From Aromatoleum toluolicum (GTDB taxonomy: Bacteria; Pseudomonadota; Gammaproteobacteria; Burkholderiales; Rhodocyclaceae), in assembly GCF_012911005.2 (NCBI RefSeq), contig NZ_WTVS01000054.1:1-39714 (forward strand): 39,714 bases of DNA, in the 5' to 3' direction. Every line of letters starts with the position of its first letter. The first letter of the stretch is position 1. Positions 33,352 through 39,714 of this stretch are shown here, piece after piece. The notes under the pieces were generated by a model. The model worked only from the letters and a program-made list of their open reading frames with translations, searched no databases and had not been told where the DNA came from. The translations under genes were made by a program, and so were the position numbers.

Positions 33352-34131
33352 ATGCAGATGGCCTTCGACTCCGCGCTCGTCCTGTTCTGGCTCAAGAAGA
33401 CCGTGTCGATCATGGTGCAGCCGCCGGTTGCGCCGCTGCTGCTGATCGCCGTCGGGCTGCTGCTCGCGGCACGCCGGCGGCGGGGCGGCTTCGCGCTGGC
33501 GTGGGCGGGCGTCGTGGCCACCTTGCTGCTGTCGACGCCGGCGAGCGTCGGCTGGCTGCTGAACGGGCTCGAGACGGCGCCGGTGGTCGACGCGGCGGCG
33601 ATGCGCGAGGCGCAGGCCATCGTCGTGCTCGGCGCCGGCAAGCGGCGTCATGCGCCCGAATACGGCGGCGAGACGGTGAACCGCCTCGCGCTGGAGCGGC
33701 TACGCTACGCGGCGCGGCTGGCGCGCAGGACGGGGCTGCCGGTGCTGGTCAGCGGCGGCGCGCCGACGGGCGACGTGCCGGAGGCGGTGCTGATGCAGGC
33801 GACGCTCGAAGAGGATTTCCGCATCCCGGTGCGCTGGGTCGAGCGGGCCTCGCTCGATACGCGGCAGAACGCTCAATTTTCGGCGGTGCCGCTGCGCGCC
33901 GCGGGCGTGCGCCGCATCCTGCTCGTGACCCACGCCGCCCACATGCCGCGCGCCCAGGCGGCCTTCGAGGACGCCGGGCTGCACGTCATCCCGGCGCCGA
34001 CTGCGTGGCTGGGCGGCACCGGTGCCGGCGACCAGGTGCTCGGGGAGCTCCCCGGGCCGACCTCCGCCTATGCCGGCTGGTATGCCGTGCACGAGTGGCT
34101 GGGGCTGCTGGCGTACCGCCTGACGCGCTGA
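33352..34131 (+). CDS. YdcF/ElyC family (DUF218) membrane protein
   Basis: This 259-residue protein has two hydrophobic N-terminal segments (about residues 25-42 and 47-62) followed by the DUF218 domain: AIVVLGAGKRRHAPEYGG, LPVLVSGGAPTGD, ASLDTRQNA and ILLVTHAAHMPRA. ElyC and related proteins affect envelope or peptidoglycan precursor metabolism; the exact reaction is not established. It is divergent from the DUF2802-type gene, with 112 bp between them. ATG 33352 is used; ATG 33358 is an alternative. Confidence 0.9.
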   Translation: MQMAFDSALVLFWLKKTVSIMVQPPVAPLLLIAVGLLLAARRRRGGFALAWAGVVATLLLSTPASVGWLLNGLETAPVVDAAAMREAQAIVVLGAGKRRHAPEYGGETVNRLALERLRYAARLARRTGLPVLVSGGAPTGDVPEAVLMQATLEEDFRIPVRWVERASLDTRQNAQFSAVPLRAAGVRRILLVTHAAHMPRAQAAFEDAGLHVIPAPTAWLGGTGAGDQVLGELPGPTSAYAGWYAVHEWLGLLAYRLTR

Positions 34132-34350: not shown

Positions 34351-36951
34351 ATGAAAGTGCTCGTCACCGCCGGCGTGGCCGTCGGCGCTCTGCTCGCCAT
34401 GGTGTTCGTTTCGGCCGATCGCGATACGGGCATCTCCCTCTCCCCCTCCCCGCTGGTCGCCACTGCCACCGCCCAGCAGCCCGCGCCGCTGCCGCCCGTG
34501 GTGGCCCCGGACACGCCGATGCCCGAGAGCACGTCCGTCGACCAGGACGCGCCCTACTTCGAGGCCTGCGCACGCGAGGGCCTGGCGGAATCGGCCTGCG
34601 TCGGCCGCCTGATCTGGTTCAAGGCGACCGCAGGCAACGAGCGCTTCCACACCTACGTGTTCCAGCAGCGCGTCGGCGTGCTGCCGGACTGGTATCGCGT
34701 GCTGCGAGCCGACCAGCGCGACGACCGCTTCCGCGCGTGGGGGCTGATCAACGATCCGTCGTGCTGCGTGCCGGGCGAGGCGAACTGCCCGGCGAAGAGC
34801 CACGACGAGACGTACGGCTTCGACTGGTGTCCGGGCGACGACGTGCTGCTGAAGCACGTCGGCAAGCCGGGCTATGTCGATCCCGCCTGCGCGCTGAAGG
34901 ACGCGGCGCTCGATCCGGCCGACCCGCACGCGAAGGACGGCCGCGACCAGCGCCATTCGGCCTGCGACCTGCGCTTCGGCACCTCGACCGGGGCGCTCGG
35001 CTTCCGCAAGTTCCCGAACCCGCGCTTCGACGCGGAGCAGTGGAGGAAGCTGAACGGCAGCCTCGGCACCTGGGAAGGCTTCGGCCGGCGCATGATCGAG
35101 CAGACCAAGGTGCCGTCGGACGAGCGTTTCAGCCGCCTTGCGGACGCGTCGGTGGAGCCCCCCTTCCTGATCGGAACGAGCTGCGGCTCCTGCCACATCG
35201 CCTTCGACCCGCTCAACCCACCCGCCGACCCGGCGCACCCGCGCTGGGAGAACATCAAGGGCCTGGTCGGCAACCAGTACCTCCGCAAGTCGGAGATCCT
35301 CGGCTCGGGCATGCCGAAGAGCAGCCTGGAATGGCAGATGTTCGCGCACGCGCGGCCGGGCGTGACCGACACGTCGGCGATTCCGCATGACGGCGTGAAC
35401 AACCCGGGCACGATCAACGCGCTGATCAATGTCGCGCAGCGCCCGATCTTCCCCGGCGAATCGATCGCGAAATGGCGCAAGGTCGCCACCTGCGGCGCGG
35501 AGAAGGACGAGACGAAGTGCTGGTGCGAGCCCGGGCGCGAGACGAAGTGCTGGGAAAAGAGCACGCGCAGCGACGACACGACGCTGGGCAAACCCGGCGT
35601 GCATCACATCCTGAAGGGCGGCGAGGACTCGATCGGCGCGCTCGAGGCGATCCAGCGCGTGTACTTCAACATCGGCTCGTGCTCCGAGCAGTGCTGGCTG
35701 AACCACCTCACCGACCTGCGCCAGGTCGACCCGCAGGCGCGCTACTTCGGCCAGACGCCGTTCAACATCGGCCAGTGCCGGCGCGACTGCCCGAACTTCC
35801 GCGCGATCGAGGACCGCCTGCCCGACATCCTGGCGTTCTTCCTGTCGGCCGAATCGAATGCGACCGATCTCGCCGTCGCGCGCAATGCGGTGCGCAAGGC
35901 GGCCGACGCGGCGGCACCCGAATACGGCCGCGACAGCCTCGTCGCCGACCTGGAGATGGAGCACGGGGCGGGGGCCGTCGGACGCGGCAAGGCGGTGTTC
36001 GCGGCGAACTGCGCGCGCTGCCACTCGAGCATTCCGGAGAGCGTCGGCGGGCCGTTCGCGAACCGCGACTACTACGCGATCGCCGACAACGGCCTGCGCG
36101 CCGACTGGCTGGGCAACGACGTCGCCACGCCCGCGACCGAGGTCGGCACGAACCGCTGCCGCGCGCTCCATTCCAACCACATGGCGGGCCACGTGTGGCA
36201 GGAGTACGGCTCGGAGACGCTGCGCGCGCGCGCGCCGGACATCAACGTCAAGGAGCCGAACGACGGCGGGCGCGGCTACTACCGCAACATCTCGCTGCTG
36301 AACCTGTGGGCGCATGCGCCTTTCATGCACAACAACGCGATCGGGCCGGAACTGTGCGGCAAGCCGGCGAACGCGGCAAACGACTTCTTCCGCGCGCGCG
36401 AACTCGACGCCGACGGCAAGCTCGCGGCGACGCAGAGCGAGTGCTTCCAGACCGATCCGAGCGTGGAAGGACGCTACCGGCTGTACCTCGCGTCGATGCA
36501 CGAGCTGCTCTATCCGGACGCGCGCAAGCCCAAGGCGACGCTCACCGACCAGGACGTGGTCCTCGACCTCGGCCCGCGCGCGTGGGACGGCACGAGCGAG
36601 AAGCCGCTCGTCGGCAGCGGACAGGTGCGCATCCCGGCAGGCATTCCGGCCAACTCGATGACCAGCCTGCGGCACAAGGACCTGGTCGTGGATCTCTTCC
36701 TCGCGAAGCGCGACCCGGCGAAGCTGGAGGCGCGCCTGGGCAAGGAGACCACCGGGCAGATGCAGAAGCTCGCGGACGACATCCTCGCCTCCCCGGGCGA
36801 GTTCGCCGGCCTGCTGCGCGGCCAGCGCGAGCTGCTGCGCCAGCACTACAGCAACTGCACCGACGAGATCGAGAACGGCGGCCACCGCTTCGGCGAGGAC
36901 CTGTCGGACGCGGACAAGAAGGCGCTGATCGCCTTCCTCGCGACCCTGTGA
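34351..36951 (+). CDS. Exported di-heme c-type cytochrome, unknown function
   Basis: This 866-residue protein has an N-terminal signal/anchor (VTAGVAVGALLAMVFVSA). Two canonical heme c sites are present: CGSCH at 278-282 and CARCH at 554-558. Twenty further cysteines (for example the PSCC, KCWC, CSEQC and CRRDC segments) suggest many disulfides outside the cytoplasm. A conserved-looking WAHAPFMHNN (653-662) resembles the loop after the second heme in the di-heme peroxidase/MauG/RoxA superfamily, but overall similarity to any named enzyme cannot be judged here. AGGAG lies about 7 nt before the ATG. It is the first gene of an operon with a lipoprotein and a second di-heme protein. Function is unknown; a periplasmic or outer-surface oxidase, peroxidase or electron carrier is possible. 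Confidence 0.88.
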   Translation: MKVLVTAGVAVGALLAMVFVSADRDTGISLSPSPLVATATAQQPAPLPPVVAPDTPMPESTSVDQDAPYFEACAREGLAESACVGRLIWFKATAGNERFHTYVFQQRVGVLPDWYRVLRADQRDDRFRAWGLINDPSCCVPGEANCPAKSHDETYGFDWCPGDDVLLKHVGKPGYVDPACALKDAALDPADPHAKDGRDQRHSACDLRFGTSTGALGFRKFPNPRFDAEQWRKLNGSLGTWEGFGRRMIEQTKVPSDERFSRLADASVEPPFLIGTSCGSCHIAFDPLNPPADPAHPRWENIKGLVGNQYLRKSEILGSGMPKSSLEWQMFAHARPGVTDTSAIPHDGVNNPGTINALINVAQRPIFPGESIAKWRKVATCGAEKDETKCWCEPGRETKCWEKSTRSDDTTLGKPGVHHILKGGEDSIGALEAIQRVYFNIGSCSEQCWLNHLTDLRQVDPQARYFGQTPFNIGQCRRDCPNFRAIEDRLPDILAFFLSAESNATDLAVARNAVRKAADAAAPEYGRDSLVADLEMEHGAGAVGRGKAVFAANCARCHSSIPESVGGPFANRDYYAIADNGLRADWLGNDVATPATEVGTNRCRALHSNHMAGHVWQEYGSETLRARAPDINVKEPNDGGRGYYRNISLLNLWAHAPFMHNNAIGPELCGKPANAANDFFRARELDADGKLAATQSECFQTDPSVEGRYRLYLASMHELLYPDARKPKATLTDQDVVLDLGPRAWDGTSEKPLVGSGQVRIPAGIPANSMTSLRHKDLVVDLFLAKRDPAKLEARLGKETTGQMQKLADDILASPGEFAGLLRGQRELLRQHYSNCTDEIENGGHRFGEDLSDADKKALIAFLATL

Positions 36952-36969
36952 GCGAAAGGAGACCGCGCC

Positions 36970-37863
36970 ATGACCCGCCAAGCCTTTCGCCCCCTGCGCT
37001 CCCTTCGCACCCTGGGCGTCCTCGGCGCCGCGCTGGCGCTGCTTGCCGCCTGCGGCAAGACCGAGCCCCCGGCAATCGCGTTCGCGCCGTACGCGACGGA
37101 TTACGCGAGCAAACCCGACTTCGCCCAGCTCGAGCACCAGTTCCCGCTGACGCCGGCCGATCTCGCGAAGATCACGCCGGAGAACCTCGCGCTGCTGAAC
37201 CAGGAGCAGCTCGACCAGATCTACGCGCGCCTCACCGCGGGGCCGATCCCCGACGGTCCGTTCGACGGCAGCATCATCCTGCCCGAGGGCGAGAGCGGCA
37301 AGCTGCGCGCGGGCGAGATCGTCGGCGGGCTCGCCGGCTTCGCACTGCACCTGAAGGGCATTGCCGTCGACAAGATCGGCGAGACGCTGTGGAAGGGCAA
37401 GGTGTTCTACCGCAACGAGCGCGTGCTGCGGAACCGCATCGAGGACCTGGAGATCTTCCGCAAGGCCGGTCTCGTCGAAGGCGAACCGCAGAAGATCACC
37501 GTCGGACGCAAGGACGCGTGGCTGCTGTTCCCTGCCAAGCTCTACTGCGGCCAGAGCCTCGTCGATTCGCGGCGCGAGTCGGTGATCATCGACTACGCCT
37601 TCACCGACGAGCTGCCCGGCTATCAGGAGAAGCCGGACTTCCTCGCCGGCCGGCGCGGACTCAAAGTGCGCGACGAGATCCGCATGGTGCGCCCCGGCCT
37701 CTACCTCGGCCGCGCCTACATGGACCGCGTGTTCGTGCTGAACTTCGTCCTCTACAACAAGGAAATCGCCGAGCGCGACGGGCCGGCCTTCCAGAAGGCC
37801 GGCACGGTACAGGAAGACTGCTGGGGCGGCACGCAGAAGCGGGTCGTCGTCGCCGCGAAGTAG
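36970..37863 (+). CDS. Outer-membrane-type lipoprotein of the cytochrome operon
   Basis: This 297-residue protein begins with a basic signal peptide and the lipobox LLAAC, giving a lipidated C28 followed by glycine (no Asp at +2), which predicts sorting to the outer membrane. The mature part has two more cysteines (C193 and C284). Distinctive segments are GPFDGSIILPEGESGKL, ETLWKGKVFYRNERVLRN and VRDEIRMVRPGLYLGRAYM, which suggest a beta-rich, lipocalin-like or ligand-binding fold. AAGGAG lies 8 nt before the ATG, and the gene starts 18 nt after the first cytochrome stop. I do not recognise the family. It may anchor or partner the cytochromes at the outer membrane. Confidence 0.85.
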   Translation: MTRQAFRPLRSLRTLGVLGAALALLAACGKTEPPAIAFAPYATDYASKPDFAQLEHQFPLTPADLAKITPENLALLNQEQLDQIYARLTAGPIPDGPFDGSIILPEGESGKLRAGEIVGGLAGFALHLKGIAVDKIGETLWKGKVFYRNERVLRNRIEDLEIFRKAGLVEGEPQKITVGRKDAWLLFPAKLYCGQSLVDSRRESVIIDYAFTDELPGYQEKPDFLAGRRGLKVRDEIRMVRPGLYLGRAYMDRVFVLNFVLYNKEIAERDGPAFQKAGTVQEDCWGGTQKRVVVAAK

Positions 37864-37894
37864 GCCGGCCACGGGCGGCGAGGAGATGCCGGCG

Positions 37895-39670
37895 ATGCGC
37901 GCCGCGAACCGGGCCAGTGGGGTGATGCTCGCGGCGGCGCTCGCGGTCGCGCTGTGGGACTACGGCCGCCAGCCCCCGCCCGGCGCGGCCGAACCTGCCC
38001 CGGCGGCGCGTGGCGAAGCCCGCACGACGCCGTCCCCGCCAGCCCGCCTGGTGCTTGCGCCGGACGCCTACGGCGAGGACCTGCCGTCCGCCGGCGCGTC
38101 GCTGTTCGACCAGCGCGTCGCGGCGCTCGGCGGCGCGGCGGCCCTGCCTTATCCGTTCGAAAGTCTGTTGCAGCATCTGGAAGGCGGCGGACAGTGCGCG
38201 GACCTGCCCGAGGGGCGCTGCCTCGTGCGCGTGCTGATCCCGATCGGCCGTTCGCTGCAACGCCTCGCCGCAGCCCCGGAGTTTTTCCGCCACCCGCGCG
38301 TCGTCGCCGCCATGGCCGGCGAACCGGCCGCCCACGGCCCGGGCCCGCTGCAGCGCGACCGCCTGTATCTCGGCCACGTCGGCAACAGCGAGGTCGTCGA
38401 GGTCATCAGCTACAACGAGGCGGCCACCCGCTTCGAATTCCAGCTCGTGCTCGACTACCGCAGCGGCGCCCGGCCGCGCGTCGTGTATGCGTCGCGCCCG
38501 CTGTGCCTCGCCTGCCACCAGAATCACGCGCCGATCTTCTCGCGCCCGCTGTGGCAGGAGACCAACGCCAATCCGGCGGTCGCGGCGCGGCTTGCGACGT
38601 GGCAGGCGAACGTCGCGGGCGTGCCGGTGCGGCGCGGCATCGATCTCCCCGGCGCGATCGACGCCGCCGCCCAACGCGCCAATCGCTTCGCGCTGTGGCA
38701 GACGCTGTGGCGCACGGGTTGCGGCGACGGCGAGCGCGGTACACGCTGCCGCGCCGCGCTGTTCGAGGCCGCGCTGCGCTACCGCGCGACGGGACGCCAC
38801 GAGCACGTCGCGCTGCACGACGCGATCCTGCCCGCCTTCGCCGCCGCCTGGCAGGCTCACTGGCCGGGCGGGCTCGCGCTGCCCGACGCCAACATCCCCA
38901 ACCGCGATCCGCTGCCGGAAGGGCTGGCCCGCACGGACGGCGCGATGCTCGCGAACATTCCCGCGCCGTTCGACCCGCTCGCACCGCGGCCGCCGCTCGA
39001 AGTCTGGCGGCTGCCGGACACCGGGCGCCTCAACGAGACCGTCGCGGGGTTGGCCGATCTGCTGGGCGAACACGACCTCGCCCGCCTGCGTGCTGCCCTG
39101 CGCGGCCATCCATCGCAGGCGACCGACTTCGCCCGCGTCGGCGACGCGGTCGCCGCCCTCGCCGCTGCACCGGGCGGCGGACCGTTCGCCGCGGGGCCGT
39201 TCCGGCGCGAAGCGCTGATGAAGGCGCTCCTCGCCCGGCTCGGCAGCCCGGAACGCGAATCCGCGCCCCTCGCCACGGCGGCGCCGGAGCGCGACGTGCC
39301 GCACTTTCCGCCCGCGACCTCCGCCGGCCTGTTGCAGCGCTACTGCACCCCCTGCCACCAGACGCCATCGAGCACCCCGCCGAATTTCCTGCACGGCGAC
39401 GAGGCGACCGTGCGTGCCCGCCTGACGCACTGCGCCGCGCGCATCCGCTATCGCCTCGCGATGTGGCAGCAGCAGCCCGCGGCGCGCGCGAAGACGCCCA
39501 TGCCCCCGCTGCAGGCGCTGCGCCCGCTCGGCGCCGACCCGTCGAGCTGGGCAGCGAGCGCCGAGCTCGCGACGCTCGCCGCCTACGCCACCGAACTCGC
39601 GGGCGGCGCACCGATGCCGCAGCCGGACAACTACGAGGCCCTGCCTCCCTGCCTGCCCGCCTCGGGCTAA
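37895..39670 (+). CDS. Second exported di-heme c-type protein, unknown function
   Basis: With ATG 37895 the protein has 591 residues; AGGAG lies 9 nt upstream, whereas it directly abuts the alternative ATG 37886. A signal/anchor (residues about 8-20, GVMLAAALAVALW) and a Pro/Ala linker lead into a large domain. Heme c sites are CLACH at 204-208, within SRPLCLACHQNHAPIFSR, and CTPCH at 484-488, within YCTPCHQTPSSTPPNF. Between them lie several hundred residues without further heme sites. No close named family is recognised. Its place directly after the lipoprotein and first cytochrome implies a joint role, for example passing electrons between two di-heme proteins across the periplasm. Confidence 0.86.
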   Translation: MRAANRASGVMLAAALAVALWDYGRQPPPGAAEPAPAARGEARTTPSPPARLVLAPDAYGEDLPSAGASLFDQRVAALGGAAALPYPFESLLQHLEGGGQCADLPEGRCLVRVLIPIGRSLQRLAAAPEFFRHPRVVAAMAGEPAAHGPGPLQRDRLYLGHVGNSEVVEVISYNEAATRFEFQLVLDYRSGARPRVVYASRPLCLACHQNHAPIFSRPLWQETNANPAVAARLATWQANVAGVPVRRGIDLPGAIDAAAQRANRFALWQTLWRTGCGDGERGTRCRAALFEAALRYRATGRHEHVALHDAILPAFAAAWQAHWPGGLALPDANIPNRDPLPEGLARTDGAMLANIPAPFDPLAPRPPLEVWRLPDTGRLNETVAGLADLLGEHDLARLRAALRGHPSQATDFARVGDAVAALAAAPGGGPFAAGPFRREALMKALLARLGSPERESAPLATAAPERDVPHFPPATSAGLLQRYCTPCHQTPSSTPPNFLHGDEATVRARLTHCAARIRYRLAMWQQQPAARAKTPMPPLQALRPLGADPSSWAASAELATLAAYATELAGGAPMPQPDNYEALPPCLPASG

Positions 39671-39681
39671 GGAGCGCGACG

Positions 39682-39714
39682 ATGGCTATCCTGCGCCGAT
39701 CCTCCCCCAAGCCC
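39682..39714 (+). CDS. Start of a fourth operon gene, cut by the window end
   Basis: An ATG at 39682 has AAGGAG 8 nt upstream and begins MAILRRSSPKP before the window ends. It starts 11 nt after the preceding stop and on the same strand, so it very likely continues the cytochrome operon. Nothing can be said of its product beyond a basic N-terminus. Confidence 0.65.
   Translation, partial: MAILRRSSPKP

Follow-up and report, generated by a model that had tools for sequence, protein, structure and literature searches.

What might a bacterium do with an operon of cytochromes and one lipoprotein that matches no pathway at first sight? We consider this question for a locus at the end of a 39,714-nucleotide (nt) stretch of DNA from Aromatoleum toluolicum. 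This whole stretch, called the window below, is one contig (C239) of a 6.16-Mb draft assembly in 289 contigs. The locus shows three complete genes, named P1, P2 and P3 here, and the start of a fourth, F3a, whose companion F3b lies beyond the contig end. The answer that we reach, possible rather than probable, is that the operon may be an envelope lipid-oxidation system oxygenating a lipophilic, probably unsaturated acyl, substrate, with both the substrate and the reaction being what we infer.

The positions of the genes are collected in Table 1. As a preliminary description of the window stated, the three complete genes and the start of the fourth lie on one strand and have ribosome-binding sites, with gaps of 11-31 nt. 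The gaps are 18 nt (P1-P2), 31 or 22 nt (P2-P3, depending on the P3 start) and 11 nt (P3-F3a), and a GGAG-type site precedes the starts of P2, P3 and F3a. For P3, the GGAG directly abuts ATG 37886, so that the alternative ATG 37895, with a better AGGAG spacing, is the better start; it gives the 591 residues that had been proposed. The contig end at base 39714 cuts off F3b and nearly all of F3a, and extension past this point, as had been suggested, does finish the operon: another contig of the same genome (C55, 4041 bases, locus L103) carries F3a (843 bits) and F3b (865 bits). The part of F3a that lies on C55, ending at the contig edge, is 494 codons long, and the copy in locus L014 has 510; if the lengths are equal, about five codons are missing between the two contigs. 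The F3a start in the window resembles that of L014 (MAILRRSSPNP). Because no overlap of 15-200 bases was found between the window contig and C55, the join rests on synteny and on the fit of the F3a length. The two genes are mutually similar, with median lengths in relatives of 507 (F3a) and about 492 residues (F3b). The five genes P1-P2-P3-F3a-F3b almost certainly form an operon. The preliminary description was right that P1 and P3 are di-heme proteins; its count of two such cytochromes and its "four-heme chain" give way to four di-heme proteins (P1, P3, F3a and F3b) with eight hemes, three of the four being of enzyme type.

Table 1. Positions of the operon genes in the window and of related or neighbouring features (labels beginning with L denote loci of other genomes)
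Feature	Position	Strand	Description
P1	34351-36951	+	866-residue exported di-heme c-type protein, probably a divergent RoxA type
P2	36970-37863	+	297-residue lipoprotein, conserved predicted beta-barrel core, lipobox LAAC-G
P3	37886-39670	+	594 residues; predicted exported or anchored cytochrome, two CXXCH
F3a, start	39682-39714	+	first 11 codons, MAILRRSSPKP, of the fourth gene
DUF218 (ElyC-like) gene	33352-34131	+	219 nt upstream of P1
Second cluster	L112:6793-15791; L099:3274-12026; L109:5418-14171; L110:5651-14402		six syntenic genes
Interrupted P1	L079:9842-12295		in-frame stop
P1-like and P3-like pair	L100:4309-10190 (minus); L102:40-5730		no P2 or F3 genes
TIR-domain protein	L015:18418-20157; L016:18549-19826; L042:19422-21113; L076:19329-20852		at F3b or one gene downstream of it
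Metalloprotease-like gene	L068:6004-7161; L070:8717-9826; L088:4716-5942		upstream of the operon

The next question is whether this grouping is kept in other genomes. Scanning named genome contigs with P1 gave 99 that encoded a relative, and the best 80 were kept as the locus set. A six-frame profile search of these loci finds P1 in 80, P2 in 78, P3 in 74, F3a in 65 and F3b in 63. The two P2 misses are partial genes at a contig end, seen by tblastn, and P2 adjoins P1 in all 80 loci. Five of the six P3 misses fall at contig ends and one, on a contig from a metagenome-assembled genome (MAG; L083), is a true absence; the F3a misses (15) and the F3b misses (17) all lie at the ends of the available DNA. 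Wherever the contig reaches, the five genes keep one order and one strand across the 80 loci. One locus departs from the operon layout by an extra open reading frame between P2 and P3 (L068), and single genes are split in three (P1 in L079, P3 in L088, F3b in L036). The split P1, from a MAG, may reflect gene decay or a sequencing error. Both CXXCH motifs are present in all 80 P1 reading frames and in 25 of 27 aligned P3 sequences, the other two having one; with the conserved gene order, this shows the grouping to be more than chance.

The same holds within the family of the organism. Among 150 genomes of that family P2 is found in 21, P1 in 24 and P3 in 23, and 126 have none of them; all 21 genomes with P2 also carry P1 and P3, a co-occurrence that the preliminary description had expected. 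The genomes with P1 and no P2 are a P1-P3 variant (G030), a genome that is 82% complete with P1 cut at a contig edge and P3 present (G634), and one with the GMC-type second cluster described below, whose P2-like gene falls under the threshold used (G670). A phylum-wide draw gives P2 matches in 2 of 398 genomes, namely the own genome and one weak distant homologue, while a P1 search of 61 relatives gives 14 matches, with full-length P1 in 6 of the 17 genomes of the own genus. The closest named relative of P1 that we find is that of Aromatoleum tolulyticum (96% identical), and the labels Nitrospira, Kuenenia and Chloroflexota (L080, L081, L083) belong to MAG contigs that may be mis-binned. The operon is patchy and accessory, yet kept whole. 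Searching plasmids with P2 returns nothing; searching them with a distant 147-residue P2 homologue returns one unannotated Nocardia record (32% identity), the neighbours of which are unrelated by eye. We find no description of the five-gene operon in the open-access literature, most subscription journals lying outside this search.

To which enzymes are the products related? Window proteins taken alone against Pfam, NCBIfam and PDB give little beyond generic cytochrome c; it is the alignments and the downstream genes that reveal the kinship. The alignment rows were chosen by hand for spread: 32 for P1 (A5; the window and 31 of 41 non-redundant loci), 39 for P2 (A1; the window and 38 of 46), 27 for P3 (A2; the window, 25 of 42 and L084, which is outside that list), 20 of 36 for F3a (A3) and 18 of 37 for F3b (A4). 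Mean column identity is 63% for F3b, 62% for P1, 57% for F3a, 54% for P2 and 41% for P3. For the NCBIfam and Pfam tests of F3a and F3b we use the L014 proteins, the closest complete copies. They score 160.6 and 159.8 bits against NF040606, above its cut-off of 150 (the six-frame match of the own genome is fragmented, in pieces below the cut-off), and 52.4 and 57.8 bits against the Pfam family RoxA-like_Cyt-c (PF21419, cut-off 26.7). The top PDB match of the F3a profile is RoxA itself (4b2n, E 2.7e-17). By these sequence comparisons we are highly confident in assigning F3a and F3b to the branch of RoxA and the fatty-acid oxygenases.

P1 appears to be a more distant member of this group. Its top PDB match is again 4b2n, weakly (E 0.0046), and hhalign relates it to F3a and F3b with probabilities of 97.8% and 97.7%, over the C-terminal heme region only. 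P1 of the window has CGSCH at residues 278-282, CARCH at 554-558, PFMHNNAIGP with His660 and, near the C-terminus, GHRFG with His845. Across the alignments the two CXXCH are kept in all sequences (P1 32/32, F3a 20/20, F3b 18/18), the His-Asn motif P-F/Y-x-HN-N/G in 31/32, 20/20 and 18/18, and the C-terminal GH motif in 32/32, 19/20 and 16/18. In RoxA and its modelled kin, O2 binds at the N-terminal heme, and a His close to the C-terminus serves as second ligand to the C-terminal heme (PMC4496055, PMC6797691; papers given by PMC number are cited from part of their text throughout). The equivalents of RoxA Phe317, Phe301 and Trp302, residues at its active heme, are not placeable, the matches to 4b2n covering short stretches only. 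P1 is quite likely a divergent relative of the RoxA branch. F3a and F3b have a strongly hydrophobic N-terminal stretch, and since an AXA-type cleavage motif is seldom seen near its end (3/20 and 3/18), the two are probably membrane-anchored.

How do they compare with the known systems? With RoxA and RoxB, F3a and F3b share the family by sequence, the two CXXCH, the motif P-Y/F-x-HN-G/N, the C-terminal GH motif and export. The operon differs in having three such proteins, a cytochrome of no known fold and a barrel lipoprotein, and a true rubber oxygenase is not supported, with scores far below the equivalog cut-offs of RoxA and RoxB (1000 and 900 bits): 57.6 and 52.1 for F3a, 50.8 and 69.7 for F3b, 11.2 and 12.3 for P1. 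The FadCcp enzymes of Pseudomonas aeruginosa (PA2077, 10S-DOX, and PA2078, 7,10-diol synthase), compared by description and motif, are likewise tandem exported di-heme enzymes of the RoxA branch, with the motif PYFHNGSVP (PMC4496055); they form a pair of 634 and 624 residues, whereas the three proteins here (866, about 507 and about 492 residues) belong to a five-gene operon. RoxC is RoxA kin predicted to be attached to the membrane, like F3a and F3b, which score 86.0 and 75.3 bits against the RoxC model (cut-off 900); RoxC is itself a lipoprotein (PMC10837239), whereas here the lipoprotein is a separate gene, P2. CcpA, MauG and MbnH have two c-type hemes in common with the operon enzymes. A classical CcpA or MauG is not supported, with no PF03150 match for P1, P2 and P3 (E <=1) or for F3a and F3b (E <=0.1), and neither is the MbnH family (TIGR04039, cut-off 362.85 bits), with a score of 12.1 for F3b, F3a and P1 being unlisted in the NCBIfam search. 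The earlier impression that the set matches no known pathway thus holds in that neither a description nor a close hit is found, and is to be amended in that the family kinship to RoxA is clear.

The two remaining proteins have no Pfam or NCBIfam family match above cut-off. The aligned P2 proteins share 50-68% identity with that of the window, and 63 columns are invariant over the 39 sequences (Trp141 among them). Its structural model (pLDDT 85.7, pTM 0.82) has 4mve as the top Foldseek match, weak for all its probability of 1.00 (E 1.7e-3), and lipocalin, FABP and CRABP entries appear weakly among the 50 matches listed (probability 0.13-0.44). In the sequence searches, matches of P2 to "major prion protein" (E 1.3-4.9) and similar were discarded as chance. 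The model suggests a ligand-binding barrel. P2 had been described as an outer-membrane lipoprotein. The lipobox (LAAC-G) upholds the second half of this; the first is insecure, since the residue after the lipobox Cys, G in the window, is Asp in 7 of the 32 homologues with a parsed lipobox. An eighth Asp case is L076, mis-parsed and by eye PGC-D; 7 of the 39 aligned rows have no parsed lipobox, several being start-trimmed. In E. coli, Asp after the lipobox Cys is a signal for inner-membrane retention.

P3 carries the motif C..CHQ...P-I/L-F besides its two CXXCH. Its model is confident (pLDDT 84.5, pTM 0.85) and matches no known fold by Foldseek against PDB (best E 0.62). Compared by hhalign with P1 and F3a, P3 shows no kinship to the RoxA branch, the probabilities being 7.9% to P1 (a 22-residue CXXCH stretch only) and 1.3% to F3a. 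Three alphaproteobacterial P3 proteins (L084, L085, L089) are short, about 290-410 residues, and have one CXXCH, so that the core of P3 may be its N-terminal heme domain.

Combining these pieces, we develop a model of how the operon might work. P2 would bind a lipophilic substrate and present it at the membrane, P1 would oxygenate the bound substrate, and F3a and F3b would act on the product by oxygenating it further, isomerising it or reducing a peroxide, while P3 would shuttle electrons between the enzymes and the respiratory chain. The likeliest substrate would be an unsaturated fatty acyl chain or another unsaturated lipid. The precedent for the branch is fatty-acid oxygenation in P. aeruginosa, where 10S-DOX and the 7,10-diol synthase work in tandem (PMC4496055). 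Oxidation of a lipophilic substrate, one of two functions proposed in the preliminary description, is favoured because of the kinship of F3a, F3b and, distantly, P1 with RoxA and the fatty-acid oxygenases, and because of the lipase-type and oxylipin-type neighbours of relatives.

The first of these neighbours is a patatin-like gene that adjoins the operon in 6 of the 80 loci, upstream in L068, L078 and L091 and downstream in L084, L085 and L089. Its identity was tested on the L085 copy, which scores 32.4 bits with PF01734 (cut-off 27.7). In some lineages this protein may release the substrate or make it accessible. In a P1 tree the six loci fall in three lineages, and well-supported branches leave room for a single origin of the upstream placement; the tree has long branches that meet (L101, L105 and the GMC group) and was used solely for this spread. 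Other flanking genes are noted here in their own right. The DUF218 gene has a counterpart upstream of the operon in L014 and is absent from the widely shared neighbour families. A TIR-domain protein follows F3b in four loci (PF13676 shown for the L076 copy; a Thoeris-type model gives a weak 46.5 bits against 220), and three loci with the labels Hydrogenophilales or Tepidiphilus have a metalloprotease-like gene ahead of the operon, the L068 copy of which has a Pfam match to matrixin/astacin.

The second kind of neighbour is found in a different gene cluster. With the P2 profile we find a distant genome of the same phylum (G293), which we take to be an alphaproteobacterium, where six genes encode, in this order, a P1-like protein, a GMC oxidoreductase, a P2-like protein, a 433-residue protein, a DyP-type peroxidase and a 398-residue protein. 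The distant P2-like protein (147 residues) matches the operon P2 in 78 of the 80 loci (E 5e-23 to 2e-13), and a P1-like gene occurs in 3 of 195 genomes of the order of G293. The cluster is syntenic in three genomes of that order and in one own-family genome (L112, 47-68% identity), and L113 and L114 have the P1-like and GMC genes only. Below cut-off, the GMC oxidoreductase shows a likeness to choline dehydrogenase and a weak one to cholesterol oxidase. The only PDB matches of the 398-residue protein at E <=0.1 are two entries of the coral allene oxide synthase (AOS)/lipoxygenase (E 0.0035 and 0.043). The heme-site residues of coral AOS are T66, H67, N137, R64, R102, R360 and Y353 (PMC5617202); by eye (alignment A6), T102-H103 and Y374/R381 (spacing 7) fit them, and R136 lies near the position of R102. 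The AOS likeness is a weak lead. As a separate observation, in L100 and L102 a P1-like and a P3-like gene form a pair, after which come genes for a small CXXCH protein that has an EF-hand-like stretch and for a membrane protein of several helices, as judged by eye. One may go further and propose a new bacterial oxylipin-type pathway, in which one membrane lipid, supplied by a lipocalin-like P2, would meet three RoxA/FadCcp-type di-heme oxygenases in succession and the new-fold P3 would wire these to respiration, the second P1-P2 architecture adding GMC, DyP-type and AOS-like proteins; this we regard as doubtful.

Several points weigh against lipid oxidation. P1 scores 28.8 bits against NF040606 (cut-off 150) and 11.6 against PF21419 (cut-off 26.7) and passes curated cut-offs for two generic cytochrome c domains only; its kinship rests on hhalign to F3a and F3b and on the motifs, and full RoxA-family membership is not claimed for it. 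The N-terminal half of P1 is not alignable to RoxA or the F3 proteins, and no fold match of P2 among the Foldseek matches is better than E 0.001. The patatin-like gene is absent from the available flanks of 74 of the 80 loci. The GMC, 433-residue, DyP and AOS-like genes are found in none of the 80 loci and not beside the P1 relatives in L100, L101, L102 and L105 either, so that the oxylipin flavour is confined to the distant cluster. In the 398-residue protein the counterparts of coral AOS R64 (one heme Arg) and distal N137 misfit by spacing, Pfam Catalase finds nothing at this gene in four genomes, and the DyP assignment holds only in part, since the protein exceeds one Pfam cut-off and falls below another and below that of NCBIfam. 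RoxC proteins, although RoxA kin, showed no rubber cleavage in the part of PMC10837239 consulted, so that RoxA kinship does not predict the substrate. The case is indirect, activity and substrate being read from kinship and neighbours throughout.

Could the same proteins defend the cell against peroxide instead? In that case F3a, F3b and P1 would be peroxidases acting on H2O2 or lipid hydroperoxides; the electrons would come from the quinol pool or from cytochrome c by way of P3, and P2 would deliver the hydroperoxides. The superfamily NF040606 does bear the name cytochrome c peroxidase, and the hydrophobic N-termini of F3a and F3b recall YhjA, proposed to be a quinol peroxidase, for which a transmembrane helix is predicted (PMC10301912). 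However, CCP_MauG (PF03150) is without a match, as given above, RoxA is described in the cited part of PMC6797691 as lacking the acid-base residue of the peroxidases, and three enzymes with two unique proteins seem to us heavy for simple H2O2 removal. We consider peroxide defence improbable, if worth keeping in mind.

A closer variant keeps the chemistry of the lipid-oxidation model and changes the substrate to a sterol, hopanoid, carotenoid, polyisoprenoid quinone tail or aromatic hydrocarbon. Several host genera of the loci are known degraders of aromatics or hydrocarbons, and the GMC oxidoreductase of the distant cluster has its weak likeness to cholesterol oxidase. RoxA cleaves polyisoprene (PMC6797691). 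The patatin-like and AOS-like neighbours favour acyl lipids, both indirectly, and a non-acyl substrate is in our judgement unlikely.

MauG matures methylamine dehydrogenase and MbnH modifies MbnP, and in the same manner P1 or F3a and F3b might modify a residue of P2 (or P3), with P2 as the protein substrate. The strong conservation of P2 and its place beside P1 in every locus would suit this. In the distant cluster, however, the P1-like protein has a signal peptide and the P2-like protein has none (by eye), so that different compartments are expected, which argues against a P2 that does no more than anchor P1 or serve as its protein substrate; the low MbnH-family score of F3b also speaks against maturation, which is rather unlikely. 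Electron exchange at the cell surface, the other function proposed earlier, with four cytochromes passing electrons to or from an external partner and P2 as anchor, is very improbable: all products look exported or membrane-anchored and carry eight hemes, but the five conserved genes include no porin or multiheme cytochrome of an Mtr/Omc conduit, no sixth neighbour family occurs in more than 24 of the 80 loci (most neighbour families being unannotated), three of the four cytochromes have enzyme-type RoxA motifs, and the outer-membrane sorting of P2 is uncertain.

To our knowledge, the main known cases of bacterial lipid oxygenation by envelope di-heme enzymes are the P. aeruginosa diol-synthase pair and the rubber oxygenases. 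The operon brings two protein families without a Pfam or NCBIfam match above cut-off, one of them with a confident model that has no fold match. With its fixed gene order and its patchy presence within one genus, it is a genetically clean system in which functionally uncharacterised RoxA relatives can be tested, and it could supply new O2-activating di-heme catalysts for hydrophobic substrates.

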